Source of the DNA: Nitrospira sp.
Lineage (GTDB): Bacteria > Nitrospirota > Nitrospiria > Nitrospirales > Nitrospiraceae
DNA: 64,000 bases
Direction of reading: 5' to 3'
NCBI GenBank assembly: GCA_024998625.1
Contig: JACOEL010000004.1
Location: 186,001-250,000, forward strand
Under the pieces are notes generated by a model. The model had not been told where the DNA came from. It was given only the letters and a program-made list of their open reading frames with translations, and ran no database searches. The translations under genes were made by a program, and so were the position numbers. Numbering within the stretch: the first letter of the stretch is position 1; every line of letters begins with the position of its first letter. Shown here in pieces: positions 27,392-50,752 of the stretch.

Positions 27392-29470
27392 CTACGGCGT
27401 GCTCGATGAGAGCAGAGGCCAGCCGCCCACGGTGTTCGGATCGCTGATCCAGCGACCAGTGCCGTTGCGAACGTCGGCGACGATGCGGGTATCGACCATA
27501 TCCCGTGGCTGTGCGCCAGATCGGCTGAGAACATCTTCGTAGGCTTGCAAGGCACTCGTTGTGGTCATCTGCGGATGGGAATAGCGCACCGATTGCACTG
27601 GCACCCCGCCATTGTCGCTCCAAATGATATCTGTTTCAGGTGCTGTCCCTGTCCGCCTGGAGCGCCCCACGTTATCCTTGACGTAGATGCCAGACTGCGG
27701 ACTGTATGGCATCTGGCCGATCGTGCGGATGACGTGATAGCCTAGGTTGAAGCCACCGTTGTACTCCGCGCTACTCAGTCCGTCCTTCCAATAGTTACCT
27801 ACGAAATTAATGTGGACCGGCCAGTAATACGGTGCAATCTGTGCGCTCGACCCGCTGGAGTTGTAGTCGACGTTATTCACGAAGTCGATCTCGCCCCCGG
27901 TAGCGTTTGGAAACCGTAGAAAGTTATGGGCATTGAGCACGCGCAGGACGGAGAGCGTTTCCTTATTGCCGGTGCCGACTAGGATGCCTTTCGAGGAGCA
28001 GTTCGAGCACCCCGGCCCACTGATGAGCCCTTCGCTGATGATCGAATCCTGAATCGTGACATCTTTGGTGCCGTTAATGACGGCGATGCTGTCGTCTGTG
28101 GTCCAAGAAACAGAGATGTGGTCTGCGATGTGGTCATGCGTCCCTGTCCCGTCCTCGCGGCTCATGTAGGTGATGCCGTTGGCGTTGACCCCGCGCTGCG
28201 TATAGGGAGCGGCGCCGGGACGGATACGGAGGTGCCGAATGATTGTGTGGTTGGCCCGTACCGTGATACCGCCGTCTTTGATGGCCAGCGGGTACGCCGA
28301 GCCGTCAATCGTGAGGGAGTCGTTGCGCACCAGGATGTCGTAGGTGCCCAGGCTGACGGTTCCCGCCACCATGATTCGACAGGTCCGCGGTCCACTCATC
28401 ACTTGTGCGCATTCCCGCAGACTGCCAGGGCCGGAGTCGTTCAGGTTCGTGACATCAATGACGACACCGCTGCGGCCACCTTGGCTGCATCGTCCAAAAC
28501 CTTCGGCACCGTCGAAGGCAAGCGGAAGGCCATTCGGACAAGGACCGGTATTGGTTGACGGCGTGGGGGGGACGGATGCTGTGCTTGATGGAGCAGCGTT
28601 GGTTGGGGCAGCCGTCACGGTCGCAGCAGCCGTCGGTGAGGTTGATGGAGAGCTTGTCCCAGAGGAGACCGTCATCGGATTGCTTTTTGCTGCCATGGAA
28701 TAGGCGTTGTCGAGCAGATAGCGAAATTCATACAGCTGCGGCGCAGTGCTACTCGGCACGGTAAAGGTCAAGACACCGCTGGTCCCGCTCGGAACGTAAC
28801 GCCAGGTCACAAAGGTATTGCCGGCCGAAGGCTTGCTGACCAAAAAGAGCCCAATCCAGTCCTTGGCCGAATGCGTGCCAGGGGCTTTCCAGGAAACGAC
28901 CGCAGTGCCACCGGGGGCAACGGTTACGGGGGTGGCGAGGACTGCATAGACTGCGGATGAGGGCGCAGGGGCTGACTGGGTGGGACTCGAAGCTTCCGCC
29001 GTGGGGGAAATAGCCGGGGCTGGCGGCGGCGGAGGAGGTGGTGTCGCGGTAGAGGAGGAAGGAGTTACTGTGCCTGCCTGTGAAACCGTGATGGCATTGC
29101 TGGTGGCCGATTTAGTGAAACCGTTATTGAGGAGATACCGAAATTCGTAGGTGTGCGGAGTCATGACGTTTGGTAGATTGAACGTCATCAGGCCGTTGGG
29201 CCCACCTGGAACATACTTATACGTCACGATCGTGTTCCCGGCACTCGGTTGACCAACAAGAAAAAGACCAATCCAATCCTGCGAAGAGTGGGTGCTTGGA
29301 GCCGTCCAGGCAACCGTCACGGATCCTCCGGAGACTGCGCTTGCTGGAGACGCGATGACGGTGAATCCATTTGGCGAGATGTTTTGCGCCCGACTGTGCG
29401 CCGGAGAATACAGGGCAAAGAGGAACGGAGTGAGAATCGCAGCGGTGGATATTTTGAACAGCTTCACCAT
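27392..29470 (-). CDS. Secreted beta-helix (pectate-lyase-like) protein with two DWIGLF domains, copy 1
   Basis: 692 residues; AGGAGG precedes the start. Signal peptide MVKLFKISTAAILTPFLFAL, ending near SRAQ. Two beta-sandwich domains (about 32-130 and 175-270), each with WTAP/WKAP-THS-DWIGLFLV and VPxGxxGxxTF-YEFRYLL patterns, are joined by a PPPPPPP and Ser/Thr/Pro-rich linkers. From about 305 a right-handed beta-helix starts with GAEGFGRCSQGG, VTNLNDSGPGSLREC, HTIIRHLRIRPG, DHISVSWTTDDSIAV and IISEGL, the pattern of PL1-like pectate lyases. It probably cuts or binds an acidic polysaccharide outside the cell. A paralogue lies upstream on the same strand. Confidence 0.85.
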   Translation of the reverse strand: MVKLFKISTAAILTPFLFALYSPAHSRAQNISPNGFTVIASPASAVSGGSVTVAWTAPSTHSSQDWIGLFLVGQPSAGNTIVTYKYVPGGPNGLMTFNLPNVMTPHTYEFRYLLNNGFTKSATSNAITVSQAGTVTPSSSTATPPPPPPPAPAISPTAEASSPTQSAPAPSSAVYAVLATPVTVAPGGTAVVSWKAPGTHSAKDWIGLFLVSKPSAGNTFVTWRYVPSGTSGVLTFTVPSSTAPQLYEFRYLLDNAYSMAAKSNPMTVSSGTSSPSTSPTAAATVTAAPTNAAPSSTASVPPTPSTNTGPCPNGLPLAFDGAEGFGRCSQGGRSGVVIDVTNLNDSGPGSLRECAQVMSGPRTCRIMVAGTVSLGTYDILVRNDSLTIDGSAYPLAIKDGGITVRANHTIIRHLRIRPGAAPYTQRGVNANGITYMSREDGTGTHDHIADHISVSWTTDDSIAVINGTKDVTIQDSIISEGLISGPGCSNCSSKGILVGTGNKETLSVLRVLNAHNFLRFPNATGGEIDFVNNVDYNSSGSSAQIAPYYWPVHINFVGNYWKDGLSSAEYNGGFNLGYHVIRTIGQMPYSPQSGIYVKDNVGRSRRTGTAPETDIIWSDNGGVPVQSVRYSHPQMTTTSALQAYEDVLSRSGAQPRDMVDTRIVADVRNGTGRWISDPNTVGGWPLLSSSTP

Positions 29471-29924: not shown

Positions 29925-31895
29925 TTACGGGGTGCCTCCCGAAAGGCTTGGCCAACCACCTACTTGCAATGGGCTGGAGATGATTGCGCCCGTTCCGTTC
30001 CGGACATCGGCTACGACGCGGGCGTCGACCGAGTCCCGTGGCTGCGCTCCAGACCGGCTGAGCACATCTTCGTAGGCTTGCAAGGCGCTCGTCGTCGTCA
30101 TCTGTGGGTAGGGGTAGCGCACCGCTTGCACTGCCACCCCGCCATTGTCGCTCCAGATAATATCTGTTTCCGGCGCAGTCCCTGTCCACCTTGAGCGCCC
30201 TACGTTGTCCTTGACATAGATGCCGGACTGAGGACTATAGGCAAAGCTGCCCACCGTGCGGATAACCTTGTAGCCGAGGTTGAACGGCACGGCCGATGGG
30301 CCGTCTTTCCAGTAGTTGCCGACGAAATTGATATGGACGGGGCTGTGGAATGGCACCACCTGCGCGCTGGAGCCATTGCCGTTGTAGTCCACGTTATTGA
30401 CGAAGTCGATGTCTCCGGAGCTGGCATTCGGGAAGCGGATGAAGTTGTGCGCGTTCAGCGTTCGCAGGACTGATACCCGCTTCGCGTTGTTGCCGATGAG
30501 AAGTCCCCGGCTGCCGCATCCCTCGCAACTCAGTCCTTCGGACATGATGCTGTCTTGAATCGTGACATTGTCAGTTCCGTAGAATACCGCCATGAGATCG
30601 TCCGTGCCCCAAGACACCGAGCAGTGGTCGACGATGATATCCGTCGTCCCCGTACCGTTTTCACGAGACATTAATGTGATACCGTTCGCATTCGAGCCGC
30701 GCTGCTGTAAGGATGCCGGGCCCGGACGTACCCGCAGATGGCGAATAATCACATGACTGGCCCGCACGGTGATCCCGCCATCCTTCAGCGTCACCGGCGC
30801 GGCGCTTCCGTCAATGGTCAGGTAATCGTTGCGAACGAGGATGTCCCAGGTTCCTAGACTAATGATCCCTGGCACTGTGGTTCGGCAGATGCGCGGGCCG
30901 GTTTCAACCTCGGCACATTGTCTGAGACTGCCGGGCCCATTGTTGTTCAGGTTCGTCACATCGATGGTGCGCCCCCCACGGCCGCCTTGCGCACAGCGGC
31001 CGAAGCCTTCGGCGCCTTCGAAGGCGAGCGGAGCCCCATTGGCACAGGAGCCGCCTGTCGAGGTGGCCGGCGGCGGGGGTGGTGGCGGTGGCGGCGTTGT
31101 TGAAGGCGGCGGGGGGGGCGGTGAGGTTGCCGAGGAAGTGGCGCTGGATGTGACGGTAACTGCATTGCTCCTGGCTGCTTCAGTAAAGCCATCATTGAGC
31201 AGGTAGCGAAATTCGTATGTCTGCGAAACAGTGGTGTTAGGAGCCGTGAAGGTTAGGACACCGCTGGTGCCGCTCGGAACGTAGCGATACGTCACTATGT
31301 TGTTACCGGCCGTCGGTTTTCCTACCAGGAATAATCCCACCCAATCTTTCGCCGTATGCGTGCTCGGCGCTCGCCAGACCACGGACGTAAGCCCACCTGG
31401 CGGAATGGTGACGGGGGAGGCAAGAATGGAATAACTGGTGCTCGTGCCGCTCGTTGATGAAGACGGAGGCGGGGGTGGTGTCGTGGACGGCGGTGGCGTT
31501 GCGGTACCGGTCTTTGAGACAGTGATAACATTACTCGTCGCCGTGGTGGTAAAGGTGTTGCTGAGAAAGTATCGAAATTCGTAGTTCTGCGCAGTTGTAA
31601 CGTTTGGAACAGTGAATGACAGAATACCGCTAGTTCCGCTGGGAACATATTTATACGCCACGACAGTGTTCCCGGCACTCGGATAACCCGCAAGAAACAG
31701 ACCGATCCAGTCCTGCGAGGAGTGGGTGCTTGGAGCCGTCCAGGTCACTGCCACGGCTCCTCCTGAGATCGATGCCGTCGGTGTTGCCATGATCGAAAAT
31801 CCTGCTGTCGAGACAGTCTGTGCCGAAGTCAGTAACGGAGAATTCAGTGTGAAGAAGAGGGGAATGAGAATCGCTGAGGTCAATAATTTGATCAT
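29925..31895 (-). CDS. Secreted beta-helix (pectate-lyase-like) protein with two DWIGLF domains, copy 2
   Basis: 656 residues from the ATG at 31895, chosen because GGAAAGGAAC precedes it and MIKLLTSAILIPLFFTLN is a clean signal peptide; the frame is open 15 codons further up. Same layout as copy 1: two DWIGLFL domains (about 28-120 and 150-245), linkers with long proline runs, then a beta-helix starting GAEGFGRCAQGGRGG with VTNLNNNGPGSLRQC, IIRHLRVRPG and DHCSVSWGTDDLMAV. The C-terminal 100 residues are nearly identical to copy 1, pointing to tandem duplication. Likely exported glycan lyase or adhesin; catalysis not proven by sequence. Confidence 0.85.
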   Translation of the reverse strand: MIKLLTSAILIPLFFTLNSPLLTSAQTVSTAGFSIMATPTASISGGAVAVTWTAPSTHSSQDWIGLFLAGYPSAGNTVVAYKYVPSGTSGILSFTVPNVTTAQNYEFRYFLSNTFTTTATSNVITVSKTGTATPPPSTTPPPPPSSSTSGTSTSYSILASPVTIPPGGLTSVVWRAPSTHTAKDWVGLFLVGKPTAGNNIVTYRYVPSGTSGVLTFTAPNTTVSQTYEFRYLLNDGFTEAARSNAVTVTSSATSSATSPPPPPPSTTPPPPPPPPPATSTGGSCANGAPLAFEGAEGFGRCAQGGRGGRTIDVTNLNNNGPGSLRQCAEVETGPRICRTTVPGIISLGTWDILVRNDYLTIDGSAAPVTLKDGGITVRASHVIIRHLRVRPGPASLQQRGSNANGITLMSRENGTGTTDIIVDHCSVSWGTDDLMAVFYGTDNVTIQDSIMSEGLSCEGCGSRGLLIGNNAKRVSVLRTLNAHNFIRFPNASSGDIDFVNNVDYNGNGSSAQVVPFHSPVHINFVGNYWKDGPSAVPFNLGYKVIRTVGSFAYSPQSGIYVKDNVGRSRWTGTAPETDIIWSDNGGVAVQAVRYPYPQMTTTSALQAYEDVLSRSGAQPRDSVDARVVADVRNGTGAIISSPLQVGGWPSLSGGTP

Positions 31896-32269
31896 TTTGT
31901 TCCTTTCCGAGAGGGCATCGGAATTTCCCTGATCCCTCAAGGGCGGCGTGGCACCCTCTCACAACATTGACACGCAGGTTCTGGAAAGCGCCGATCACCT
32001 GCCAGTCGCATCATCGATTTTTTTCAATTGGGCAGCACGGCTCAGGCAAGTCTGGACTGTATGGACGTCCTACTAAGGAACAGCGTGCCGCGGGTAAGTC
32101 TTCGTCACTCTGAAGTCTCCTTACCGTCTTCAATATGCTATGAGGGGCTGGGTTACCATTCTTCGATGTTGCGTTCAAACGAAATCACCAGTCGTCGGCA
32201 GGCACAACATGAACGACTGGAAAGTTGTCGAAGTGGGTACGTGTCCGGATAGCAAGTACGTTTATTCAC
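31896..32269. other. Divergent intergenic region upstream of lyase copy 2 and the GT2 gene
   Basis: 374 bases between divergent genes. It must hold promoters for both directions. The only element that can be supported is the two-block module at 32053-32084. No RNA gene or small ORF with coding character was recognised. Confidence 0.5.
32053..32084 (-). repeat. Upstream module shared by the two lyase genes, copy 2
   Basis: TGGACTGTATGGA (32053-32065) and AAGGAACAGC (32075-32084), spaced by nine bases exactly as at 29623-29654, and about 160 bases before the copy 2 start. The preservation of both blocks and spacing, while surrounding bases differ, suggests a functional site kept after duplication. 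Confidence 0.6.
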
Positions 32270-33331
32270 ATGCCACCTGAGAAGTCAACAGAAAATTGTC
32301 CGATCGAGGTCTCGGTGATCGTCCCTTGCCGAAACGAGGAGGACACGATCGCCGATTGCGTGAACTCGATCCTTCGGCAAGAACCGGTGGCCGGTGGAAT
32401 GGAGTTGATCGTTGCAGACGGACTCTCGACAGACAAAACTCGCGAGGTCCTCACGCAAATGACCCAGGCCGACGCCCGCGTCAGGCTCATAGACAATCCA
32501 GGGCGTATAGTGTCGAGTGGACTGAACGCCGCTTTGGAGGCCGCACGAGGCGCCATCATCATACGTATGGACGCACACACGCTCTATGCTCCCGACTATA
32601 TCCGGCAATGCATCATTGCGCTGCGGGAAACGGGCGCAGAGAACGTCGGAGGTCCGGCGTTGACGAGCGGAGAAGGTTATTTCCAGACGGCCATTTCGGC
32701 CGCGTATCACTCACCGTTCGCCGTGGGTGGAGCACGATTTCACAATCCGGATTACGAAGGTTTTGTCGATACCGTTCCCTACGGCTGTTGGCCACGCAGG
32801 GTTTTCTCGGAGATCGGTCTCTTTGATGAAGAGTTGGTCCGCAACCAAGACGACGAGTTCAACCTTCGGCTCATTCGCTCAGGCGGGAAGATTTGGCAAT
32901 CGCCGCGCATCAAGAGTTGGTACCGTCCACGAGGGTCACTTCGGGACCTGTTCCGGCAGTACTGCCAGTATGGATACTGGAAAGTTCGTGTCATCCAAAA
33001 GCATCGACTTCCGGCCTCGATCCGGCACGTGATTCCTGGTGTGTTTCTGTTATCCCTAGCGGGATTGCTGCTTCTCTCCTGGTGGTGGCGTCCCGCGATC
33101 TGGGTGTTGGCCACGGTGGCCGCTCTTTATGCAGCCGGCACTCTCGGAGCGTCCTTCGTTACGGCTGCGAAGCGCGGGTGGACACTCCTTCCCATTCTCC
33201 CCGTGGTGTTTGCCACCTACCATGTCAGCTACGGGCTAGGTTTCCTGCGCGGCCTGTGGGATTTTCTGGTCATCCGCAAGCGACCGCAACAATCATGGGC
33301 CACACTCTCGCGGGGATCTGCGGCACGATAA
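32270..33331 (+). CDS. GT2 family glycosyltransferase (ExoA-like)
   Basis: 353 residues from the ATG at 32270; a TTG 45 bases upstream is also in frame. EVSVIVPCRNEEDTI is the GT-A N-terminal strand, IVADGLSTDKT the first Asp, IIRMDAHTLY the DxD-like metal site, and NQDDEFNLRLIRSGG the ED motif. PRGSLRDLFRQYCQYGYWK corresponds to the Q/RxxRW-type region. Two or three hydrophobic segments near the C-terminus (VFLLSLAGLLLLSWWW, WVLATVAALYAAG) place it in the inner membrane, as in succinoglycan ExoA-type enzymes. It likely extends the lipid-linked exopolysaccharide repeat unit. Confidence 0.87.
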   Translation: MPPEKSTENCPIEVSVIVPCRNEEDTIADCVNSILRQEPVAGGMELIVADGLSTDKTREVLTQMTQADARVRLIDNPGRIVSSGLNAALEAARGAIIIRMDAHTLYAPDYIRQCIIALRETGAENVGGPALTSGEGYFQTAISAAYHSPFAVGGARFHNPDYEGFVDTVPYGCWPRRVFSEIGLFDEELVRNQDDEFNLRLIRSGGKIWQSPRIKSWYRPRGSLRDLFRQYCQYGYWKVRVIQKHRLPASIRHVIPGVFLLSLAGLLLLSWWWRPAIWVLATVAALYAAGTLGASFVTAAKRGWTLLPILPVVFATYHVSYGLGFLRGLWDFLVIRKRPQQSWATLSRGSAAR

Positions 33332-33362: not shown

Positions 33363-34430
33363 ATGACGCACACTTTTGAAAAAGTCGACCTGCCCTTTCC
33401 CTCCTGGGGAAAAATCCTGAGCACGTTCGAAGATCGGACGATCTTCCAGTCGCCGGCCTGGCTCGCATTCGTCACCAAGACGCAGCGGGCTGAGCCTATT
33501 TTTGCCTGCCTCCGTGACGGAACCCGGCCGTTGGGCTATTTCAGCGGACTGATCGTGAAACGGTTCGGCCTCAAGATTCTCGGCAGCCCGCTGCCCGGTT
33601 GGACGACTTCATACATGGGCATGAATCTCTTGCCGGGCGTCTCGCGGCGTTCCGCGCTGGAAGCCCTCCAGCGATTGGCGTTCGAGCGTTTGGGGTGCGT
33701 CCACATCGAAATGATGGATCGCAATCTGAGGATCGAGGATGCCGACGGACTCGGCTTTGAGTATCGAGCGTTCGGAGGGTTTGAAGTCGATCTGACTCAG
33801 AACCTCGAACAGCTGTTTTCCAACATGGCGAGTGCCTGCCGGCGCTGTATCCGGCGAGCGGAAAAGAGCGGGGTCACCATTGAGGAGGCGCACGATGCTG
33901 CCTTTGCCGGGGAGTATTATGCGCAGCTTCAAGAGGTCTTTCAAAAACGATTGTTAGTGCCGACATATGGTGTGGAACGGGTGCGGGAATTGATCACCTG
34001 TTTGTCGGACACGGGCCAGTTGCTCCTCTTACGCGCGCGTGATCCTCAGGGTAAATGCATCGCCACGGGGATTTTCCCGGCAATGAACACCACCATGTTC
34101 TTCTGGGGAGGGGCTAGTTGGAGGGAATCGTTGGGTTATCGACCGAATGAAGCGATTCAATGGTACGCCATGCAGTATTGGAAGGCGAGAGGCATCCGAC
34201 GGTATGACATGGGAGGAGGTGGTGAATACAAACGGAAGTTTGGAGGCTGTGAGATCATGGTGCCCTGGTTGCGTAAGTCAAAGTATCCGGCATTGGCGTC
34301 TCTCCGCAACCTGACAAAACAGGTGGTCGGTTGGCGCCAACGGATTGCCGGTCGAGTAGAGGGCACTGCGAGTTGGTCTCGGTCACCTATCAAACTCTCT
34401 CGATCTGCACACAATCAGGGAAATCGGTGA
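33363..34430 (+). CDS. FemAB-like GNAT-fold protein, exosortase-cluster type
   Basis: 355 residues. TIFQSPAWLAFV near the N-terminus, PLGYFSGLIVKRFGL, the basic helix ACRRCIRRAEKSGVTI near residue 160, and PNEAIQWYAMQYWKARGIRRYDMGG toward the end (a motif cited here as YAMQYWKARGIRRYDMGG) follow the two-lobe FemAB/peptidoglycan-bridge plan. GGGGEYKRKFGG is the final conserved segment. Such proteins occur in exosortase loci with unknown acceptors; amino-acyl or acyl transfer to a sugar is the working guess. Lies between GT2 and the putative sorted protein. Confidence 0.7.
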   Translation: MTHTFEKVDLPFPSWGKILSTFEDRTIFQSPAWLAFVTKTQRAEPIFACLRDGTRPLGYFSGLIVKRFGLKILGSPLPGWTTSYMGMNLLPGVSRRSALEALQRLAFERLGCVHIEMMDRNLRIEDADGLGFEYRAFGGFEVDLTQNLEQLFSNMASACRRCIRRAEKSGVTIEEAHDAAFAGEYYAQLQEVFQKRLLVPTYGVERVRELITCLSDTGQLLLLRARDPQGKCIATGIFPAMNTTMFFWGGASWRESLGYRPNEAIQWYAMQYWKARGIRRYDMGGGGEYKRKFGGCEIMVPWLRKSKYPALASLRNLTKQVVGWRQRIAGRVEGTASWSRSPIKLSRSAHNQGNR

Positions 34431-34528
34431 TTGTGACCCGTCCGACCGAAGGATCGATTTTGTGGGTCGCGTTTGCTTACATTCATTCAGTTCGCCAACT
34501 TCATCCACCTCTGAATATGGAGCACAGT

Positions 34529-34858
34529 ATGAAACTGGCTAGTATTTTCCCTGTCATTGTGATGTGCGCGTTTTTGGCGGCCTTCCAGACATCGGATGCA
34601 CAAGCTACTCCAACCCATCTCTCTGCCAGTAAGTTGGTGGTTTCGAAGATAGCCATGTCTACCTGGCCAGCCACGCACCAGGCAACCTGGGATTTCTGGT
34701 CCATCCTGAGGCAATATCTCCACAAGAATTCCTATGGGACCTACGGGACCAAGAGTGTTCCTGTGCCGGGTACGATCCTGCCCTTCGGAATCGGCTTCGC
34801 CGGACTCATGGCGTGGGGAAGCATCAGAGCGTATGTCCGCAAGCAGCGTAAGCGTTGA
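34529..34858 (+). CDS. Short secreted protein with PEP-CTERM-like (VPVPGT) sorting tail
   Basis: 109 residues from the ATG at 34529. Signal peptide MKLASIFPVIVMCAFLAAF, likely cleaved after TSDAQA. The last 33 residues have the three-part exosortase signal: VPVPGTILPFG (in place of VPEPAT), a hydrophobic helix GIGFAGLMAWGSI and a basic end RAYVRKQRKR. The region between, about 50 residues, is featureless. The exosortase gene starts 169 bases downstream, so this is its probable substrate. Too short for an enzyme; it could be a surface anchor, a carrier or a matrix protein. Confidence 0.75.
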   Translation: MKLASIFPVIVMCAFLAAFQTSDAQATPTHLSASKLVVSKIAMSTWPATHQATWDFWSILRQYLHKNSYGTYGTKSVPVPGTILPFGIGFAGLMAWGSIRAYVRKQRKR

Positions 34859-34867
34859 CAATAACGC

Positions 34868-34901
34868 CACCCGGAACCACAGGCATTTGTGGCTCCGGGT
34901 G
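34868..34901. terminator. Hairpin after the sorted-protein gene
   Basis: CACCCGGAACCACA (34868-34881) pairs with TGTGGCTCCGGGTG (34888-34901) with a single mismatch and a six-base loop, ten bases after the stop codon. It lacks a T tract. It may end or attenuate transcription so that the small protein is made in larger amount than the exosortase downstream. Confidence 0.55.
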
Positions 34902-35026
34902 ACCAGTGAATGCCCCGTCCGAAGACTCTGGAGTGCGCCTTCGTTCAGGCACGTTCATGGATCGCCTCCTGTCGATATGGGAGTGTTGATCCTGTCGAGC
35001 TAAATTAGAACGGGGTGACCCTGTGC

Positions 35027-36007
35027 ATGAAAATTATTTGCCAAGACATGATGTTTGGCGAGATGGATCGATGGATCGTTGTACGCATGTTGACACAAAT
35101 GGCTAAAGGCATCTTTACCTCTGTTCCTACGTCGGCAGGACAGAGCGACAAGAGATGTCTGCTCAGATGGTCGACGGTGGCGACGATCACCATACTTGCC
35201 TGGGGGGCGATGTTCTGGTTGTTCTGGCCTACCGTTCGAACTCTGATCGCGTCGTGGATGGTATCCAGGACGTTCACTCATGGTTTCTTGGTTTTGCCTG
35301 CAACGGTGTATCTCCTCTGGTTCTATCGCCAACATCTGACAGGGATTGTGCCGACTCCGAATTTAAGCGGCCTAGCGGTATTTTCTCTGCTGGTCTGCGG
35401 GTGGTTCATCAGTCATCAGGCGGGTAGCAGCCTGTGGGAGCAAGTTTCATTAGTTGGTATGTTGCCGGCTCTGGTTTGGGTCATTGCTGGTACATGCGCC
35501 TTGCGGGTTCTCTCGTTCCCGTTAGGACTGCTGACGTTCGCCTTACCAATCGGTACCGCCATTGAAGTGTGGCTGCAAGACTTCACGACCACGTTTCTGG
35601 AGGTGACGTTGAACGCCGTTGGAGTTCCCTTACTCCGCGAGGGGTACTTTCTTCACATCCCTTCGGGCCGGTGGGAGGTGGCCACGGACTGCGCAGGTCT
35701 TCGATATGTTCTTCCAGGACTTGCGCTGGGCTACATGTATGCGGCGATGATGTATCGCCAGGCGTTGCGGCGTGTGGCGTTTCTCATTCTGTGCGGCCTG
35801 TTCTTGATTCTGGCCAACGGAGTGAGGGCCTTCGGTATCATTTTCTTCGACTTTGTGGGATTGGCTGAAGGCACGGATCATCGGGTGTTCAGCTATCTCG
35901 TATACGGGATCACGATCGTGTTTCTGGCGTGGGTGGGGACGACGTGGGGTGACGACACAACGGAAGATGCGACTCACGGAGAATCGCCTCAGGTTGATTC
36001 AGCGTGA
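35027..36007 (+). CDS. Exosortase (XrtA-like transpeptidase/protease)
   Basis: 326 residues from the ATG at 35027 (a GTG at 35015 is also possible). About eight hydrophobic segments. The catalytic triad of exosortases is visible: Cys222 in ATDCAGLRYVLPG, Arg267 in LANGVRAFGIIF and His285 in GTDHRVFSYLVYG. FTHGFLVLP near residue 80 is the SHG-type loop of the family. It should cleave the PEP-CTERM-like tail of a secreted protein in the periplasmic face and pass the product to an anchor. No EpsI-type extension follows. The candidate substrate gene lies just upstream. Confidence 0.9.
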   Translation: MKIICQDMMFGEMDRWIVVRMLTQMAKGIFTSVPTSAGQSDKRCLLRWSTVATITILAWGAMFWLFWPTVRTLIASWMVSRTFTHGFLVLPATVYLLWFYRQHLTGIVPTPNLSGLAVFSLLVCGWFISHQAGSSLWEQVSLVGMLPALVWVIAGTCALRVLSFPLGLLTFALPIGTAIEVWLQDFTTTFLEVTLNAVGVPLLREGYFLHIPSGRWEVATDCAGLRYVLPGLALGYMYAAMMYRQALRRVAFLILCGLFLILANGVRAFGIIFFDFVGLAEGTDHRVFSYLVYGITIVFLAWVGTTWGDDTTEDATHGESPQVDSA

Positions 36008-36145: not shown

Positions 36146-37648
36146 GTGCTGTTTGGAGTCTATCTCACATACTTGCTGTTCTTTGCGTTGACGCCGTTTA
36201 CGTTTCATATTCATTCGTCGGAGTCACTTCTCACTCAGGTCCGGAACACATTCGGGGGACTCGATGATTTATCGAGTGTGATGCCGTGGGATGTGTGGAC
36301 CAACCTCTTTCTGTTCGTGCCATTCGGTTTCTTGTTTCCGTCGCTGCCCGTCGTCGTCACGCGGCCGTTGGCGACGAGGTTGGTGCTAGGCACCTTGTCG
36401 GCCTGCTCGATGAGCGCGGGGATTGAATGCTTGCAGGCGCTGCTTCCCCGCCATCCCTCGGTCAGCGACATTGTATTGAATACCCTGGGGGCGTTCGCCG
36501 GAGGGGTGGGTTACGCCGTTCACCGTTTGCGTCGCAGGCCTCGGCAAACCGATCATCACGTTTTCAGATCTGGAACGTCGTCGGTGCTTCCGCTTGTCAG
36601 TTACGCCTTGGCTTTGGGCCTTCTCTTTGGCGTCCCGTTTCCCCTCGCCGAGGATTTTTCCGAGTGGACCTCTGAATTCGATCTCTACCTCGGAGGCCAA
36701 GATGTTATAGAGAGGTCCTGGAGCGGAGAGATCTACCGCATCTCTCTCTACAACCACGTGCTTCACCAAGCGGAGGTCAGAACGAACTTCTCTGCCGGTC
36801 CACATCGGGGATCGGGCTTGCCGCAGGTCGAGGAGGGACAGCGCTTCAGCTATGATTTTTCTCGCACCGTTCGCGCCTCGGGAACCGGCATCGACGGTCC
36901 CGCAGTGCCGATCCACCTTGGGATCAAGGATTCGTCGAGGATCGAGTGGCTGATTCCGAACGGCCTGGCGGTTCGAGACACTCGGGTAAGTCTCTTCTCG
37001 CGGCCGGTCGCCAGCCCTTCCGCAGGCCGGTTTTTCGCACACCGTCGCTTTTCCGTAGAGGCCTGGGTTGTGCCTTTCGATCCGCAGGACTGGGGGGCTG
37101 TACGTCTTGTCTCTTATTCGACCAAACCTGAGCGTGGGGCCTTCTCGCTCACCGAGTGGAAACAGGAGGTTACGCTGTCCTTGGGACCTTTTCATGAAGG
37201 AAGGGGCTGGACCGTCCCGGTGGCAGGCTCCATGGACCAGGTATCGGGAACAGTCCCGCGGCACGTTGTGGTCAGCTACGATGATGGCTTGGAAACGTCG
37301 TACGTGAATGGGATCGAAGTGGAACGTAGGTGGCGACGCTTCAAGAATGCCTCGATTGACAGGCTCATCGGCCTGTTAGGACAGCAGTTCGCCTGGCCTT
37401 TGTTTTCTGCTTTCACATTCCCGCTCGGATACTTCGCGTCTAGAGCAAGCGCAAGGCCGCTCATCCCGATCCACCCAAGATGGGTGTCATGGGCCGTTCT
37501 CACAGGAAGTCTTGTGTTTTTTCAAATCGTTCGCAGTCTGGCCCTCAATGCTCCGATTGAAACCTCCCTTCTGCTCGTCGGAGCAGGTACCGTATCGGTT
37601 GCAATGGTGATCGCGCCCCATCTGGGCGATCACCTCAATCCTCGCTGA
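36146..37648 (+). CDS. VanZ-like membrane protein with a LamG (concanavalin-like) domain
   Basis: 500 residues from a GTG at 36146, preceded by GGCGGAGGGGG. Residues about 1-135 match VanZ: YLLFFALTPFTF, WDVWTNLFLFVPFGFLFP, ECLQALLPRHPSVSDIVLN. After a segment LVSYALALGLLFGVPFPLA comes a periplasmic region of about 220 residues containing a LamG-like fold (RFSVEAWVVPFDPQDWGAVRL... cited as FSVEAWVVPF, with VVSYDDGLETSYVNGIEV). Three more hydrophobic segments close the chain. VanZ-like proteins recur in exosortase loci. A role in sensing or binding the polymer at the inner membrane is a guess. Confidence 0.8.
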   Translation: MLFGVYLTYLLFFALTPFTFHIHSSESLLTQVRNTFGGLDDLSSVMPWDVWTNLFLFVPFGFLFPSLPVVVTRPLATRLVLGTLSACSMSAGIECLQALLPRHPSVSDIVLNTLGAFAGGVGYAVHRLRRRPRQTDHHVFRSGTSSVLPLVSYALALGLLFGVPFPLAEDFSEWTSEFDLYLGGQDVIERSWSGEIYRISLYNHVLHQAEVRTNFSAGPHRGSGLPQVEEGQRFSYDFSRTVRASGTGIDGPAVPIHLGIKDSSRIEWLIPNGLAVRDTRVSLFSRPVASPSAGRFFAHRRFSVEAWVVPFDPQDWGAVRLVSYSTKPERGAFSLTEWKQEVTLSLGPFHEGRGWTVPVAGSMDQVSGTVPRHVVVSYDDGLETSYVNGIEVERRWRRFKNASIDRLIGLLGQQFAWPLFSAFTFPLGYFASRASARPLIPIHPRWVSWAVLTGSLVFFQIVRSLALNAPIETSLLLVGAGTVSVAMVIAPHLGDHLNPR

Positions 37649-37730
37649 CAGCGTATCTTGTGCCGGCCGCACCTCGGTGCATCACTCGCTCCGGGTGATC
37701 ATCATGCCCACACATTCGGAAGGATCCACC

Positions 37731-38888
37731 ATGACACAATTCTTACCGTTTCACCTCCCTGATATCGGGGAGGAGGAAATCGATGCCGTCGTCTCGGTTC
37801 TGCGGTCCGGTTGGTTGACCACGGGAGCAAGGGCCAAGCAGTTCGAGCAGGATTTTGCGGCCATGCTGGGGGCCCGTTATGCTGTTGCGGTCAATTCCTG
37901 CACCGCTGCGCTCCACCTTGCCCTTGAAGCCATCGGAATCGAGGAGGGCGATGAGGTTATTCTTCCCACGATGACCTTTACGGCAACAGCCGAGGTCGTG
38001 ACCTATTTCAAAGCCAAGCCTGTCTTGGTGGACTGCCTTCCGGATACGTTGAATATCGATCCCGACCAGATCGAGCGAGCCATCACGTCGAAAACGAAAG
38101 CCATTATCCCGGTGCATTTCGCGGGACATCCCTGTGACATGGACCGTATCTCTGATATTGCGAACCGATACGGGCTCCGTGTCATCGAAGATGCCGCCCA
38201 TGCGCTCCCGGCCCGCTACCGAGGAAGACTCATCGGCACCATCAGCGACTGTACCTGCTTTTCCTTCTATGCCACGAAGAACATCACCACCGGTGAAGGC
38301 GGCATGATTACGACCGACAATCCCGAGTGGGCGGAACGAATCCGGACCATGAGCCTCCATGGGCTCAGTCGTGATGCGTGGAAGCGCTACGACGGTCACG
38401 GTTCATGGTTTTATGAAGTCCTCTCACCGGGCTTCAAATACAATCTCACCGATATTGCCGCAGCCCTGGGCATCGCACAGCTCCACAAATCCGATCGTCT
38501 CTGGAAGACACGGGAACGGTATGCGGGTCTCTACGACGAAGGATTTCGGGATCTGCCTGAAATCGTGCTCCCCACCGCGGCGGCTCATGTCCAACACGCG
38601 TGGCACTTGTATGTCATTCGGCTGGACTCCGAGCGGTCGGGGATCGGACGAGACCGGTTGATTGAGCATCTGGGGAAGGAGCACATCGGTTGTAGCGTCC
38701 ATTTTATCCCGCTGCATCTTCACCCGTACTACCGCGACACCTGGGGGTATACCTCCGAGCAATTCCCGGTCGCCACAGCGGCCTACCAGCAGATCGTGTC
38801 GCTGCCGCTCTATCCCAAGATGACCGAAACCGATATCCAACGTGTCATTTCAGTCGTTCGCACACTTATTCAAGGTTCCCGACGATGA
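37731..38888 (+). CDS. DegT/DnrJ/EryC1/StrS family sugar aminotransferase (PglE-like)
   Basis: 385 residues from the ATG at 37731 after AAGGATCCACC. FHLPDIGEEEIDAV and SGWLTTGARAKQFE are the N-terminal family motifs, NSCTAALHLAL contacts the phosphate of PLP, EDAAHALPARY binds the pyridine N, and ATKNITTGEGG contains the Schiff-base Lys183. It transfers an amino group to a UDP- or dTDP-4-keto sugar. The next gene encodes a PglF-like 4,6-dehydratase that would make exactly such a substrate, so UDP-4-amino-4,6-dideoxy-GlcNAc is the likely product. Overlaps the next gene by four bases. Confidence 0.88.
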   Translation: MTQFLPFHLPDIGEEEIDAVVSVLRSGWLTTGARAKQFEQDFAAMLGARYAVAVNSCTAALHLALEAIGIEEGDEVILPTMTFTATAEVVTYFKAKPVLVDCLPDTLNIDPDQIERAITSKTKAIIPVHFAGHPCDMDRISDIANRYGLRVIEDAAHALPARYRGRLIGTISDCTCFSFYATKNITTGEGGMITTDNPEWAERIRTMSLHGLSRDAWKRYDGHGSWFYEVLSPGFKYNLTDIAAALGIAQLHKSDRLWKTRERYAGLYDEGFRDLPEIVLPTAAAHVQHAWHLYVIRLDSERSGIGRDRLIEHLGKEHIGCSVHFIPLHLHPYYRDTWGYTSEQFPVATAAYQQIVSLPLYPKMTETDIQRVISVVRTLIQGSRR

Positions 38889-41485
38889 TGAAACGAGCCA
38901 TTGATCTCTTCGTTGCCGCGATCGGCCTTTTGGCGCTATCGCCGCTGTTCCTGCTGATTGCCCTTCTGGTCAAGCTGGACTCTTCCGGGCCGGTCTTCTT
39001 TGGGCAGGTTCGGATCGGTAGGCGGTTTCGTCCGTTTCGAATCTATAAGTTTCGTACGATGACCAGAGACGCCTCGTCGAATGGAGGCCAGCTGACGATT
39101 GGAGAGGATGCTCGCATCACTCGTGTCGGTCGGGTGTTACGTCGGCACAAGATCGATGAGTTGCCTCAGCTGCTGAACATCCTGCTGGGCGACATGAGCC
39201 TGGTGGGTCCTAGGCCGGAAGTTCCGCAGTATGTCGAATTGTTTAAGACCGACTACAGTGAAATTTTATCTGTGCGTCCTGGGCTCACCGATCTGGCCTC
39301 GGTTAAGTATGTCGACGAAGCGACGATTCTGGCCGGGGCACGTGATCCGGAAGAGGAGTATCGAACCGTCATTCTTCCTGAGAAAATCCGCCTGGCTAAG
39401 CTGTATGTCCGCCATGCCTCATTACGATTTGATGTGGCTATTATCGCGCAAACCATCTTCCGACTGACTGGCCTGCCTCTCGTCCTGTGCGAGATACCTG
39501 AACTTCAATCCTCGCATGAACACTCATTTGGAGAGGCCGGATCCAGAGCGATCGCCTGGTTGCTTCGATGGCGGCGACCCCTGATCGTCGTGGTGGACCT
39601 TGCCCTCATCGTCTGCGCCAACTATCTGGCGTTTTTGTTACGCTTCGACGGAAGCCTCTCGGAGTCTGAGGCACAACTATTTGTTCAGGTCCTTCCCTGG
39701 CTGGTAGCCATAAGGGGAGGCGCGTTTATGTTGTTTAGTCTCAACGAAGGGCTCTGGCGATACACGGGGATATGGGATTTGCAACGGATTGTCAGTGGCG
39801 TCGTCCTCAGCACCTTGGCCGTCTACGGCCTCGTCTATTGGGGGCTCGGGTTGACCGCGTACCCTCGTTCGATTCTGATCATCGACAGCGTATTGTTAAT
39901 CGGGCTTGTCACCGGGATCCGGTTGCCGTCTCGATTACTGGGGGAAAAACTCGTTTATCGCCATAAGAAGAACGTACTCATTGTCGGCGCGGGGCACTCC
40001 GGCGAGCGGATTGTGCGGGAAATGAAAACGAACAGTTCCTCTCGGTATCAACCGGTGGGCCTCATCGACGATAATGTGTCCCTCCTCAACAAGCGGATTC
40101 ATGGAGTCAAAGTGCTTGGAACCCGCAGGGACCTGCCTCGACTGCTCGCCGAGAAGCAAGTCGTGGAGGTTGTTCTGGCCTTGTCGAACGCCAAGCCGGC
40201 GCTTCTGAGAGAAATCATCTCGGCTCTTGAGCCGTTCAAAGTCTCGATCAAGACCCTGCCGAATTTGTCCGATCTTCTCGCTGATCGAAGCGCAGAGAGC
40301 CAGATGCGAAGCGTGTCTATGAGCGATCTGCTGCCACGGGCTGCTGTGAACTCACAGGCCGATGCGATGAGGCACATGATTCAGGGAAAGCGCGTGTTGA
40401 TTACGGGAGCCGGCGGCTCCATTGGATCGGAATTGTCGCGACAAGTCGCCGCCCTGAGCCCGGAAGCGCTTATCCTCTATGAGCGCCATGAAAACAGTCT
40501 CTACTTGATTGCCAAGGAGTTGGATGATCAGGGGTTTGGTTCTTTTGTCCATCCGGTCCTCGGCGATGTGACGGATGTCTCTCGACTCTCTTCCACGGTT
40601 ACCAAATACCGGCCGACCATTTTCTTCCATGCCGCCGCACACAAGCATGTCCCGCTCGTTGAACTGAATCCGGCGGAAGCCCTCAAGAATAACTGTATGG
40701 GGACACGAATGGCTGCGGAGGTGGCCGCCCGGTTCGGTGTGGAGCGATTCGTCCTTATTTCCACGGACAAAGCTGTGAACCCATCGAGTGTCATGGGCGC
40801 CACCAAGCGCGTGGCGGAACTCATCGTCCAAGGGATCGCCCGGCAGAGCAAGACGCGTTTCATCACCGTCAGGTTTGGGAACGTCCTCGGGAGTAACGGG
40901 AGCGTCCTCTTGCGATTCCAGGAACAAATTCGGACGGGCGGTCCTGTCACGGTCACCGATCCAGGAGTGCGGCGGTACTTCATGCTCATTCCCGAAGCCG
41001 TGCACCTGGTATTACAGGCCGCCTCAGTAGGGGAGCAAGGTGCGACGTATATTTTGAACATGGGAGAACAGATCAGCGTCTTAGACCTTGCAAGGAACTT
41101 GATCCGGCTGTCTGGATTCGTGCCTGGCCAGGAAATTCCGATCCAATTCATTGGGTTACGCCCGGGGGAAAAGCTCTCTGAAGAACTTGTCGGAGACGGG
41201 GAAGCCACCGAGCCGTCCCCGATCGAGAACATCCTCAGAATTCGCCGCATGGCTCCGATTGATTTCGACAATCTGCAGAATAAGGTGACGGCTTTGGAAG
41301 CAGCCGCCCGCCTGAACCACACCACGTGGGCCATCGATCGGTTACGGGAACTGGTTCCAGAGTTCCACTCTCCCGGGGAACTGGAGAGAGTGCCTATTTC
41401 GGCTATGCCCGCGGTGATGGAGGATCTCGGTGTTGCCCGGAAGACGGACTCACTGGTGGAGTCCGGTGCAACTCCTTCAGTATAA
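38885..41485 (+). CDS. Fusion: PglC-type phosphoglycosyltransferase + PglF/CapD-type 4,6-dehydratase
   Basis: 866 residues. Residues 1-205 are a small monotopic phosphoglycosyltransferase: re-entrant helix with SPLFLLIALLVKLDSSGP, then YKFRTMTRD, RVGRVLRRHKIDELPQL, GPRPEVPQYV. Residues about 225-866 are a membrane NDP-sugar 4,6-dehydratase: four hydrophobic segments, a first Rossmann-like domain (LIVGAGHSGERIV near 362), then the catalytic domain with ITGAGGSIGSEL near 503 and STDKAVNPSSVMGATK near 627. The two are separate proteins (PglC, PglF) in Campylobacter. The fusion would couple bacillosamine-type sugar synthesis with its loading onto undecaprenyl phosphate, starting the repeat unit. 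Confidence 0.9.
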   Translation: MMKRAIDLFVAAIGLLALSPLFLLIALLVKLDSSGPVFFGQVRIGRRFRPFRIYKFRTMTRDASSNGGQLTIGEDARITRVGRVLRRHKIDELPQLLNILLGDMSLVGPRPEVPQYVELFKTDYSEILSVRPGLTDLASVKYVDEATILAGARDPEEEYRTVILPEKIRLAKLYVRHASLRFDVAIIAQTIFRLTGLPLVLCEIPELQSSHEHSFGEAGSRAIAWLLRWRRPLIVVVDLALIVCANYLAFLLRFDGSLSESEAQLFVQVLPWLVAIRGGAFMLFSLNEGLWRYTGIWDLQRIVSGVVLSTLAVYGLVYWGLGLTAYPRSILIIDSVLLIGLVTGIRLPSRLLGEKLVYRHKKNVLIVGAGHSGERIVREMKTNSSSRYQPVGLIDDNVSLLNKRIHGVKVLGTRRDLPRLLAEKQVVEVVLALSNAKPALLREIISALEPFKVSIKTLPNLSDLLADRSAESQMRSVSMSDLLPRAAVNSQADAMRHMIQGKRVLITGAGGSIGSELSRQVAALSPEALILYERHENSLYLIAKELDDQGFGSFVHPVLGDVTDVSRLSSTVTKYRPTIFFHAAAHKHVPLVELNPAEALKNNCMGTRMAAEVAARFGVERFVLISTDKAVNPSSVMGATKRVAELIVQGIARQSKTRFITVRFGNVLGSNGSVLLRFQEQIRTGGPVTVTDPGVRRYFMLIPEAVHLVLQAASVGEQGATYILNMGEQISVLDLARNLIRLSGFVPGQEIPIQFIGLRPGEKLSEELVGDGEATEPSPIENILRIRRMAPIDFDNLQNKVTALEAAARLNHTTWAIDRLRELVPEFHSPGELERVPISAMPAVMEDLGVARKTDSLVESGATPSV

Positions 41486-41590
41486 TCGTTCGGTGAACGC
41501 TTGTTGATATGCGCCCGATGCTTTGATCCTGGTAGGCATGGCGAGTGACAAATTGGACAAGGCAACTGGATCAAGCCGTTGGAGTTTGAG

Positions 41591-43897
41591 ATGACCACAT
41601 TCGATGCCGAAAGACAGATCGAGCAGCCCCATTCGGGCCTTCCCCGCGATTTTTTGAGTGTCGCGAGACATCAGAAATGGGTCATCGTCGCGTGCATCCT
41701 CTTATCCGTCGTCGCCGCTGCGACATATTGTCTCATCGCCACGAAGCTATACCGCTCAGAGACCATGATTCTCGTCGAGGATCAGAAGATCCCCGAAAAT
41801 TACGTGAAGGGAGTAGACGAGGGAAATCTCGAACAGCGCATCTTCGTGATTCAAAAGCAGGTACGCAGCCGGGCGGTACTGACCGACATTGTGAACGAAT
41901 TCCACTTGTATCCGGACCTTATGGAGAAGGAAGGGCCCGAGGCGGCCGTCTCGGCGCTGGCCAACGGGATTATGGTGGAAATGGTCGGCAAGGGCCCACG
42001 CGGCAATTTTGTGGGTCGTAGCAGTCTTGACGCCTTTACGGTCTCTTTTATCCATGAGAGTCCTCGGACTGCCATGGAAGTGACCGCACGTGTGGCGACG
42101 AGGTTTATCGAGCAAAATTTGAAAACTCGCGAACAGACCGCCGAGGGCACGACGGAGTTTTTTGATGAGGAGGTTCTCAGAGCGAAGGCGGAACTTGAAC
42201 GGAAGGAGAACGAGATCAGTCAGTTCAAGTCGCTGCACGTGGGAAAGCTCCCTCAACAGATCGAGTCGAACCTGCGTGCCCTCGACCGGCTGCAAGGCGA
42301 CCTGAAGGCCAGCACTGAAAGCTCACAGCGACTGTCGGACCGGCTGGCGCTGGTCGAGAATGCGATTCGAGATTATCAACGCTCCGGCACCCCAAACCTC
42401 TCTCTCGTCCCCGGATCCGTAGAGCCGGATCCGCTCTTTCGTCGATTGAAGGAATTGCGGGAGAAGCTCGTCAAGTTACAGGCTGAATTCTGGGATACCT
42501 ACCCGGACGTCGTTTTGACAAGAGATGAGATGCAAGACGTTCAGCGAAAACTCACGGAAGTATACGGTCCTGATATCCTTAAACCCGGTGAAAAACCGAT
42601 CGATCCGTACCTGCAGGATTTGAGGAGGCAGCAGACAGAAGCCAAAAGCGAATGGGAGTTGCAGAACAGACGGCAACTGGGGCTGCAGACTGAGAAGCGG
42701 GAGCTTGAGCGACGGATCGAGAAGGCGCCGCAAATCGAACAGGACTTGTTGATCCTGGAGCGTGACTACGACAACATGAAGACCAACTACCGGTCGCTTC
42801 TGGAGAAGCGCCTCAATGCCAGGGTGGCGGAAAACCTTGAGAAGCGGCAGAAAGGCGCTCAATTTCGCATTCTTGACCCGGCGAGTTTTCCGAGAGTGCC
42901 TGAGTCTCCCAATGAACGCCGGATTATGGTTTTTGGGCTCCTCTTTGGATGTGCGCTTGGGGCAGGACTCGCCTTGATCCGGGAGCTCTCGACCCCTCAA
43001 TTCCGTCGTCCTGAGGATATTGAGCATATATTGGGACCGCAGCTACTTGCGGTAATTCCGGACTTCGCCATTGAATATAACCGCTTGAGGTGGCAGCGGT
43101 ACTTTCCGACCGCTCGTTCAGCGGCTATTGTGCCTGCAGAACAGGGTGCCGTTGTGGGAGACCTCGCGCTGATTCCCTCGGCTCACCTGAATCCGCGAAG
43201 CCCCCAGCCATGGAATGACGATTTTATTGTGAAATGGATGCCGCACTCTCTTGTGGCAGAGCAATATCGTGTCGCCGCGACGCGGCTCGCGTTGCAGAAG
43301 AGTAACGGAGATTCGACCATTGTAGCTGTCACCAGCGCCGTCAAAGGAGAGGGAAAAACAACGACAGTGATCAATCTCGGCTATACGCTTGCGCGGGATT
43401 TAGGTCTGCGCACGCTCTTGCTGGATTGCGATTTCGCCGTTCCGATGCCGGACCGCTACGTTGATACCGTTGCCAAGTGGGGGTTGGCTGATTGTCTTAC
43501 AAGGGACATTCCTCTCGAGAGTTGTTTTTCGGAGTTTGCTGATGTCCCTTGTTGGGTGATGCCGGTCGGGAATTCTGAGGTGTCTATAAACGAATTGTTG
43601 AAAACGGAACGCCTGCCGAGCATCCTTGCCCAATTGCGTGAACGGTTCGATATCATTCTTGTCAACACACCACCTATTTTCCCTTTGGCGACCATGAATG
43701 TCCTTACTAATTACATCGATCATCTGGTGCTCGTTGTGCGCGCCAATTCAACTCCTCATCAGGTCGTCAGGCGCGCGCTGAAATCCCTCGGCACGCATGT
43801 GCCGTTTCAGGTGTTGCTCAACCGGGTAGGGAGCGATGCCTTGCCTTCCTATGTCTATGGTCACTCCTACACGCGAGCGAAAGTCCAGTCGACGTAA
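41591..43897 (+). CDS. Wzc-like chain-length protein with BY-kinase domain (degenerate site)
   Basis: 768 residues from the ATG at 41591 with GGAG ten bases upstream. A Wzz domain with a TM segment (VIVACILLSVVAAATYCLIA) and a second TM near residue 450 (MVFGLLFGCALGAGLAL) flank a coiled-coil periplasmic part. The C-terminal ATPase has Walker A KGEGKTTT near 585 and A-prime LLLDCDF, but the usual RRP after it is AVP, and Walker B reads LVNTPP, with Asn in place of the Asp. The tail keeps three Tyr (YVYGHSY). It should control polymer length; kinase activity is doubtful. Confidence 0.85.
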   Translation: MTTFDAERQIEQPHSGLPRDFLSVARHQKWVIVACILLSVVAAATYCLIATKLYRSETMILVEDQKIPENYVKGVDEGNLEQRIFVIQKQVRSRAVLTDIVNEFHLYPDLMEKEGPEAAVSALANGIMVEMVGKGPRGNFVGRSSLDAFTVSFIHESPRTAMEVTARVATRFIEQNLKTREQTAEGTTEFFDEEVLRAKAELERKENEISQFKSLHVGKLPQQIESNLRALDRLQGDLKASTESSQRLSDRLALVENAIRDYQRSGTPNLSLVPGSVEPDPLFRRLKELREKLVKLQAEFWDTYPDVVLTRDEMQDVQRKLTEVYGPDILKPGEKPIDPYLQDLRRQQTEAKSEWELQNRRQLGLQTEKRELERRIEKAPQIEQDLLILERDYDNMKTNYRSLLEKRLNARVAENLEKRQKGAQFRILDPASFPRVPESPNERRIMVFGLLFGCALGAGLALIRELSTPQFRRPEDIEHILGPQLLAVIPDFAIEYNRLRWQRYFPTARSAAIVPAEQGAVVGDLALIPSAHLNPRSPQPWNDDFIVKWMPHSLVAEQYRVAATRLALQKSNGDSTIVAVTSAVKGEGKTTTVINLGYTLARDLGLRTLLLDCDFAVPMPDRYVDTVAKWGLADCLTRDIPLESCFSEFADVPCWVMPVGNSEVSINELLKTERLPSILAQLRERFDIILVNTPPIFPLATMNVLTNYIDHLVLVVRANSTPHQVVRRALKSLGTHVPFQVLLNRVGSDALPSYVYGHSYTRAKVQST

Positions 43898-47032: not shown

Positions 47033-47049
47033 TTGTCTCTTTTCAAGAC

Positions 47050-47270
47050 ACCTCGGGTCAAGGGAAGAGGGTGAGAAACCCTCGCGGTCCCGCCGCTGTA
47101 AATGGGGACGAAACCCGCCGATGCCACTCGCGTGGCCGTGAAGCGTTGTTCGTGAAGCGTGATGCGTCTGGTTCCTGACGCAAGATACGATTCACGAGGG
47201 ACGAAACACGAGCCTGCTGGGAAGGCGCGGGGAGTAGGATGAACCATGAGCCAGAAGACCTGCCTGAGGG
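47050..47270 (+). ncRNA. Cobalamin riboswitch 1, aptamer
   Basis: Conserved B12 elements in order: GGGAAGAGGGTGAGAAACCCTC, CGGTCCCGCCGCTGTA (B12 box, about 47085-47100), and the 3' core GAGCCAGAAGACCTGCC (47248-47264). CCTC at 47051 can pair with GAGG at 47266 to close P1. Between the box and the 3' core is an expanded variable arm with repeated GTGAAGCGT-type blocks. The ATG at 47246 falls inside this conserved 3' core and is not a real start codon. Confidence 0.92.
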
Positions 47271-47305
47271 AGACCCTTTATTCCCTCGTGGGCTGGGGAA
47301 TAGGC

Positions 47306-50513: not shown

Positions 50514-50752
50514 GTGTCAGGAAGACGCCGTCAGCGTCGGGGAAGATGGTGCAAAACCATCACGGTGCCGCCACTGTAAGCGGGGAGTGTTCTTCCAGGT
50601 AAGCCACTGGTTGGACGTCAGTCGTCAACCGTCACTCGATATGCGGGAGGCTTCGAGCCTCTCTTGCATCGCACGAATGACGAATGTCGAATGACGAAGA
50701 CTGGGAAGGCGGAAGAAGGCGATGATCCGCAAGTCAGGAGACCCAACTGACG
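50514..50752 (+). ncRNA. Cobalamin riboswitch 2, aptamer
   Basis: GGGGAAGATGGTGCAAAACCATC, then CGGTGCCGCCACTGTAAGCG (B12 box GCCACTGT at 50570-50577), and the 3' core AAGTCAGGAGACCC (50731-50744). GTCAG (50516-50520) pairs with CTGAC (50747-50751) to close P1. The variable arm between carries GAATGACGAATGTCGAATGACGAA-type short repeats. It lies just upstream of the outer-membrane B12 receptor gene. Confidence 0.93.

Follow-up and report, generated by a model that had tools for sequence, protein, structure and literature searches.

An XrtA-type exosortase apparently dedicated to one small adjacent protein with a variant PEP-CTERM tail in an exopolysaccharide operon of Nitrospira

I analysed a window of 64,000 nucleotides from Nitrospira sp. 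(assembly GCA_024998625.1, contig JACOEL010000004.1, positions 186,001 to 250,000 of the forward strand). Unless a relative's locus is named, coordinates are those of this whole stretch. As listed below, it was found that a small gene encoding a putative sorting substrate lies 5′ of an exosortase gene on the same strand.

34529..34858, plus strand: small substrate gene, 109 amino acids, variant PEP-CTERM protein (ATG ORF; homologues lie 5′ of the exosortase gene in relatives)
34529..34606, plus strand: predicted signal peptide MKLASIFPVIVMCAFLAAFQTSDAQA, 26 amino acids with an A-x-A end (SDAQA), by inspection
34682..34756, plus strand: Trp/Tyr-containing segment ATWDFWSILRQYLHKNSYGTYGTKS, directly ahead of VPVPGT
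34757..34855, plus strand: C-terminal sorting tail VPVPGT-ILPFGIGFAGLMAWGSI-RAYVRKQRKR (weak PEP-CTERM model scores; tail alignment)
34868..34901, plus strand: G+C-rich hairpin between the substrate gene and the exosortase gene (-24.5 kcal/mol, z -2.3)
35015..36007, plus strand: exosortase gene, XrtA type, without a fused EpsI domain (TIGR03109; start somewhere within about 35015-35100)
35690..35692, plus strand: codon of the catalytic Cys226, invariant in 16 aligned exosortases
35825..35827, plus strand: codon of the catalytic Arg271, invariant in the same 16
35879..35881, plus strand: codon of the catalytic His289, likewise invariant in the 16

The small ORF reads MKLASIFPVIVMCAFLAAFQTSDAQA, TPTH...GTYGTKS and VPVPGTILPFGIGFAGLMAWGSIRAYVRKQRKR in succession, that is, a predicted signal peptide at one end, and a motif, a hydrophobic helix and a basic cluster at the extreme C-terminus. 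The first-pass annotation had described a secreted-type protein of 109 residues carrying VPVPGT, a helix and RAYVRKQRKR, and this description is borne out by the reading of the ORF and by its conservation in relatives. The predicted signal peptide has one Lys within its first 8 residues and a best 12-residue hydropathy of 2.77. With the predicted signal peptide and the tail excluded, a mature part of about 50 residues with three Trp can be read from the sequence, and the position of the W-bearing segment is kept in most of the homologues. When the mature part was assessed as an amphipathic helix, shuffled sequences equalled it in 2-83% of trials.

Is the tail a PEP-CTERM tail? The small protein itself scores below the cut-offs of both models (12.0 bits versus 16 for TIGR02595 and 14.2 bits versus 20.7 for PF07589). 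At a lax E limit, eight of ten small homologues are recognised by PF07589 (best E 8.3e-7) and six of the ten by TIGR02595 (best E 0.0012). Since eight of the ten match the Pfam PEP-CTERM model, the tail is, by its sequence, a PEP-CTERM variant. The third motif position in the homologues is V, G, I, L, or A (VPVPGT, VALPGT, VPIPAT, VPGPET, and VSAPET), while V1, P4, T6, a GF pair and one Trp are constant in the tail alignment. Because the third residue varies freely, the change of Glu to Val is no marker of a separate system. Thus, the earlier proposal of a PEP-CTERM plan with Glu replaced by Val is right about the residue in this motif, but Val is not a fixed signature of the family. An ending of the PxP-helix-basic type occurs in 1 of the 820 open frames of the window, as compared with a mean of 0.1 in shuffled windows; a chance origin of the tail was excluded by these shuffles and by the conservation in relatives.

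A strong stem is found at the place equivalent to that of the hairpin in 10 of 12 spacers of the relatives, while the stem sequences differ. The hairpin after the substrate gene would fit a higher expression of the substrate than of the enzyme. The Rfam search gave no match at the substrate/exosortase locus.

The exosortase matches PF09721 with an E value of 4.3e-49 and the XrtA model TIGR03109 with 214.7 bits, above the cut-off of 208. Five of six relatives' exosortases also pass this cut-off, and that of G010 scores 202.8. The homology sets in at about residue 50, and the annotated start codon is uncertain. The enzyme also matches TIGR04178, a model common to exosortases and archaeosortases. 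An intact Cys/Arg/His triad had been pointed out before, and Cys226, Arg271, and His289 were indeed found to be those invariant residues. The AF2 model of the exosortase is mostly helical (pLDDT 79), and no solved exosortase structure was found by sequence or by fold (best fold E 0.26), so that the model pointed to no further function. A search of the genome for the sensor kinase PrsK gave 46 kinase matches, the best with 151.7 bits, all under the 300-bit cut-off; many XrtA systems have a PrsK, but not all of them (PMC1569441).

The exopolysaccharide gene neighbourhood that is expected of XrtA/PEP-CTERM systems is present around the pair.

32225..33331, plus strand: family 2 glycosyltransferase (PF00535, 1.1e-25)
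33363..34430, plus strand: FemAB/GNAT-like transferase, a conserved neighbour 5′ of the substrate gene (PF13480, 2e-14; TIGR03019 below cut-off)
36146..37648, plus strand: fusion protein of VanZ and laminin-G-like parts (PF04892, 5.1e-14; PF13385, 8.9e-9)
37677..38888, plus strand: DegT/PseC-like sugar aminotransferase (PF01041, 5e-139)
38885..41485, plus strand: fusion of an initiating sugar-phosphate transferase and a nucleotide-sugar dehydratase (PF02397, 4.1e-58; PF02719, 7.8e-106)
41579..43897, plus strand: Wzc-like chain-length protein with tyrosine kinase (TIGR03007, 236.2 bits, cut-off 278.85)

The best match of the Wzc-like protein is the chain-length determinant of XrtA systems, TIGR03007, and its score, like those for the XrtA-system models of FemAB and sugar transferase, is below cut-off. 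The FemAB/GNAT-like gene is present in nearly all of the relatives' loci. The VanZ/laminin-G-like fusion adjoins the exosortase in several relatives too.

How many targets does the exosortase have? The genome carries two exosortases, the XrtA-type enzyme of the window and an XrtD. A profile of the window tail type has a single strong site in the genome, which is the window tail itself (E 1.9e-14), and a broader profile that covers both PEP and VPLPA tails adds only one at C9 (E 2.8e-12). The C9 tail belongs to a protein of 240 residues which ends with VPLPAAVWLFG and adjoins the second exosortase (L067:8198-10636), an XrtD with a fused EpsI (523.7 bits, cut-off 400). Weaker matches of the tail models, among them those at C17 and C25, are without the motif and were rejected as tails. 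A codon pattern for standard VPEP proteins gave three matches elsewhere in the genome versus four in a reversed control, and none of them is a tail. Scored apart from the genome search, the tail profiles give at least 10 bits on 28 of 29 relatives' tails, some of which are in the training set, and six-frame tail searches of this kind could overlook a very divergent second substrate. Since one detectable tail lies beside each exosortase, each of the two enzymes appears to be dedicated to its adjacent tail protein. The first-pass annotation had asked for a genome-wide search for one or many substrates, and the answer is one detectable substrate per exosortase; the standard VPEP proteins that it had named as counter-evidence were not found in this genome, whose second exosortase is the XrtD with its single VPLPA protein.

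The pair is conserved in relatives. Among 175 genomes of the family, 15 have a close exosortase. Fourteen of these enzymes are of the short type, while that of G037 is a relative with a fused EpsI and has another kind of tail close by. A small tail gene lies upstream, within about 2.7 kb, of 13 of the 14 short-type exosortases; in the fourteenth genome (G017), the contig stops at the exosortase and the upstream DNA is absent. Conversely, all 13 of the 175 genomes that have a strong tail of this type also encode this exosortase, although the tail model was built from eleven rows and those genomes are circular evidence for the pairing. G313, G340, and G386 were detected independently by the tail model, and their loci afterwards bore the pairing out. 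On every contig of sufficient length, the gene order is FemAB, small protein, exosortase, VanZ (in some cases), DegT, sugar transferase, and Wzc. No homologue without the tail, which had also been named as counter-evidence, was found among the loci with intact upstream DNA, the homologues themselves having been found via the tail. The earlier idea of one exosortase dedicated to one small protein inside an exopolysaccharide operon is thus upheld by the single adjacent tail and by the pairing in 13 genomes.

Some relatives have variant arrangements. G010 and G313 have tandem tail genes before a single exosortase (L071:3214-3444 and 3851-4117; L144:8312-9037 and 9117-9428), and in G010 the spacer hairpins are duplicated along with the tail genes. 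In G012 (L068:7025-8596), a FemAB-like frame continues into the small substrate gene with no intervening stop codon, so that the product would be a fusion of the two.

The small proteins of seven relatives (G025, G018, G028, G027, G024, G008, and G340) are smaller still. Their open frames are only about 56-65 codons long and their proteins have 53-60 residues, lack Lys and Arg among the first eight, and show no strongly hydrophobic core ahead of the tail. By inspection, a signal peptide was predicted for the window protein, for five small proteins related to it, and for none of these seven. A purine stretch resembling a ribosome-binding site lies immediately 5′ of the start codon of the mini substrate genes. 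PEP-CTERM proteins nearly always carry a signal peptide (PMC1569441; PMC3237569), and the signal-less substrates, as read from their ORFs, are a departure from this rule. In the simplest reading, they would insert as short single-span proteins with the N-terminus outside. If so, they would show a PEP-CTERM protein entering the membrane without a signal peptide. A promoter-like element, CTTGACG-N17-GACAAT, is common to the same seven (L069, L070, L072, L073, L074, L075, and L141), and the palindrome AACTAAGTAGTT stands directly above it; this is possibly an operator for a regulator. Both the element and the palindrome are absent from the window.

When the operon was compared with those of G012 and G010, a divergent tract was found that links the substrate to the enzyme.

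34330..35570, no strand assigned: divergent tract comprising the 3′ part of the gene before the substrate gene, the substrate gene in full, and the N-terminal 180 or so residues of the exosortase (identity; dS 2.3 in the exosortase N-half versus 0.25-0.35 next to it)

The operon DNA is mostly 84-98% identical to that of G012 and G010, slightly lower in places for G010. In about 34.33-35.57 kb, the identity falls to 18-71% (G012) and 36-70% (G010), and it recovers beyond. The dS values for exosortase residues 50-185 are 2.28 (G012) and 1.80 (G010), versus 0.35 and 0.75 for residues 186-313 and 0.13-0.67 for the flanking genes. The dN/dS row of the SGNH gene, which contains a frame error, was left out of the comparison. 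Between G012 and G010, a shorter tract was found, consisting of the substrate gene and the exosortase up to about residue 90. The high synonymous divergence, which is saturated, and the sharp edges favour recombination over selection on the protein sequence alone, and it seems that the substrate gene and the N-terminal part of the exosortase were exchanged together. An exchange of the substrate along with the non-catalytic half would suggest, without proving it, that recognition of the substrate is in part the task of the N-terminal half, which lies apart from the catalytic residues. The exchanged tract thus gives a guess at the tail-reading half of the enzyme. Over eleven loci, the tail distance tracks the exosortase distance when the sugar-transferase gene is allowed for (partial r 0.54, p 0.014), and this correlation gives the N-half no precedence over the C-half. 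Within the G025-like group, the N-half evolves about twice as fast, and therefore low constraint may account for part of the divergence of the tract.

Is this a new kind of sorting system? It shares with the XrtA (EpsH)/PEP-CTERM system (TIGR03109, TIGR02595, PF07589) an exosortase of XrtA level, a tripartite tail, the predicted signal peptide of the window protein, and an exopolysaccharide operon with genes for a chain-length protein, a FemAB-like protein, and a sugar transferase. It differs in having one substrate rather than several or dozens, in having V, G, I, L, or A rather than E as the third motif residue, in the very small size of its substrates, some of them without a predicted signal peptide, and in the lack of a PrsK above cut-off in the genome. 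The XrtD/VPLPA-CTERM pair at C9 of the same genome (TIGR04152, TIGR03370) has the same one-to-one layout of enzyme and adjacent tail, but it is a separate subfamily with a fused EpsI, the VPLPAAVWLFG tail and a substrate of ordinary size. PepA of floc formers (NF033554) is likewise an XrtA-type PEP-CTERM protein, tied to the retention of exopolysaccharide on cells, with a stem-loop after its gene; it differs in its length (a model of about 260 residues) and in its dependence on RpoN, and the window protein matches only the tail end of the model, with 12.1 bits versus 80. A sorting enzyme and its sole target are also encoded side by side in the TIGR03784 sortase pairs and in single-target rhombosortase genomes, and dedicated single-target pairs have been defined as such (PMC3237569). 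Those enzymes belong to different families, while here the enzyme is an XrtA and the target a mini protein. The pairing of one enzyme with one mini substrate is conserved in relatives, and the pair is therefore a variant of the known PEP-CTERM sorting system and no new kind of system. The distinct system that had been suggested for the locus gained no support, as the enzyme scores above the XrtA cut-off and the tails of the homologues grade into ordinary PEP-CTERM tails.

What does the pair do? In the model for PEP-CTERM proteins, export is followed by anchoring through the tail, a cut at the motif by the Cys enzyme, and release (PMC1569441). On this model, the small protein would be exported by Sec and lose its signal peptide, and would then stay in the inner membrane through its C-terminal helix, the basic tail facing the cytoplasm and VPVPGT lying on the outer side of the membrane. 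Through Cys226, together with Arg271 and His289, the exosortase would cleave at VPVPGT or close to it, and the peptide set free would have about 50 residues and be rich in Trp, Tyr, Ser, and Thr. By analogy with PepA, the peptide may exit with, or be bound into, the polysaccharide that this operon produces, and so help to keep the polymer on the cell. In Aquincola, PepA turns soluble exopolysaccharide into cell-bound exopolysaccharide (PMC9850573), and in Nostoc, the loss of cyanoexosortase B (CrtB deletion) leads to poorer adhesion to polysaccharide and poorer biofilm formation (PMC12188702). For the mini peptide, the best guess is therefore a role in the matrix or in anchoring. I give a probability of roughly 0.6 to this reading, in which a dedicated one-target XrtA/PEP-CTERM system would supply a cut peptide to the exopolysaccharide matrix.

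It was also considered whether the exosortase acts as a transferase that joins the peptide to the exopolysaccharide or to a lipid-linked precursor, in which case the mini protein would give the polymer its peptide anchor. The single substrate per enzyme, the tiny mature part, the operon setting, and the synteny with the initiating sugar transferase and Wzc would suit such a role, and a transfer step to an unidentified acceptor has been proposed (PMC12188702; PMC1569441). However, the peptides vary greatly among relatives whose sugar enzymes are 92-98% identical, and therefore no common attachment residue is evident, which leaves this reading unlikely. A bolder form of it is improbable: the enzyme would covalently join a purpose-built peptide to the growing or finished exopolysaccharide, and the substrate and the N-half would be an exchangeable specificity cassette, so that polymers differing in their peptide ends would be made by close strains whose sugar enzymes are the same. 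The match to TIGR04178 raises the prospect that the C-terminal helix is exchanged for a membrane lipid, as by archaeosortase A, whose substrates are lipid-anchored in haloarchaea (PMC7157517), and that the product is a surface lipopeptide. This is improbable for the present operon, since no phosphatidylserine-type enzyme was found among the operon genes scanned and lipid transfer was demonstrated in archaea, another group than this bacterium.

The small protein might also be no substrate at all; as a permanent single-span subunit, it would then serve in the regulation or assembly of the exosortase or of the polymer machinery. The signal-less proteins of the seven relatives, half of which is tail and helix, would look like such a partner, and the gene adjoining xrtF is likewise required for colonisation by Flavobacterium (PMC10936215). 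A match of the tail to the Pfam PEP-CTERM model in most members, an invariant catalytic triad, and a fast-changing pre-tail part, which is unusual for a subunit, make this quite improbable. The chance seems slimmest for an ordinary multi-target XrtA system whose other substrates were overlooked. In many PEP-CTERM genomes, the targets number from several to dozens (PMC1569441), and arrays of tail proteins do occur in other family members (L145, L147), but the profiles that reach 10 bits or more on 28 of 29 tails detect only two tails here, each beside its own exosortase.

The preferred reading, a cut peptide that would join the matrix, bears on a wider question. The product and the acceptor of bacterial exosortases have, to my knowledge and as far as the literature was searched, not been reported. 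The many targets in PEP-CTERM genomes make this question hard, and a conserved single target of 53-109 residues is a minimal test case with one enzyme, one peptide, and one polymer.

Other observations were made in the relatives and elsewhere in the window. Other long exosortases are each beside a larger protein with an APEP tail (L079, L080, L081, L082, L085, and L086), which suggests that, in the lineage, each type of enzyme is paired locally with a type of tail. On the minus strand of the window, two adjacent genes (27392-29470 and 29925-31940) encode secreted proteins resembling the pectate lyase PelZ, with scores below cut-off. Both carry Pro-rich linkers, and the aligned stretch of G012 has one such protein. 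Cobalamin riboswitches are found at 47038-47281 and 50515-50765, before apparent B12 uptake and biosynthesis genes.
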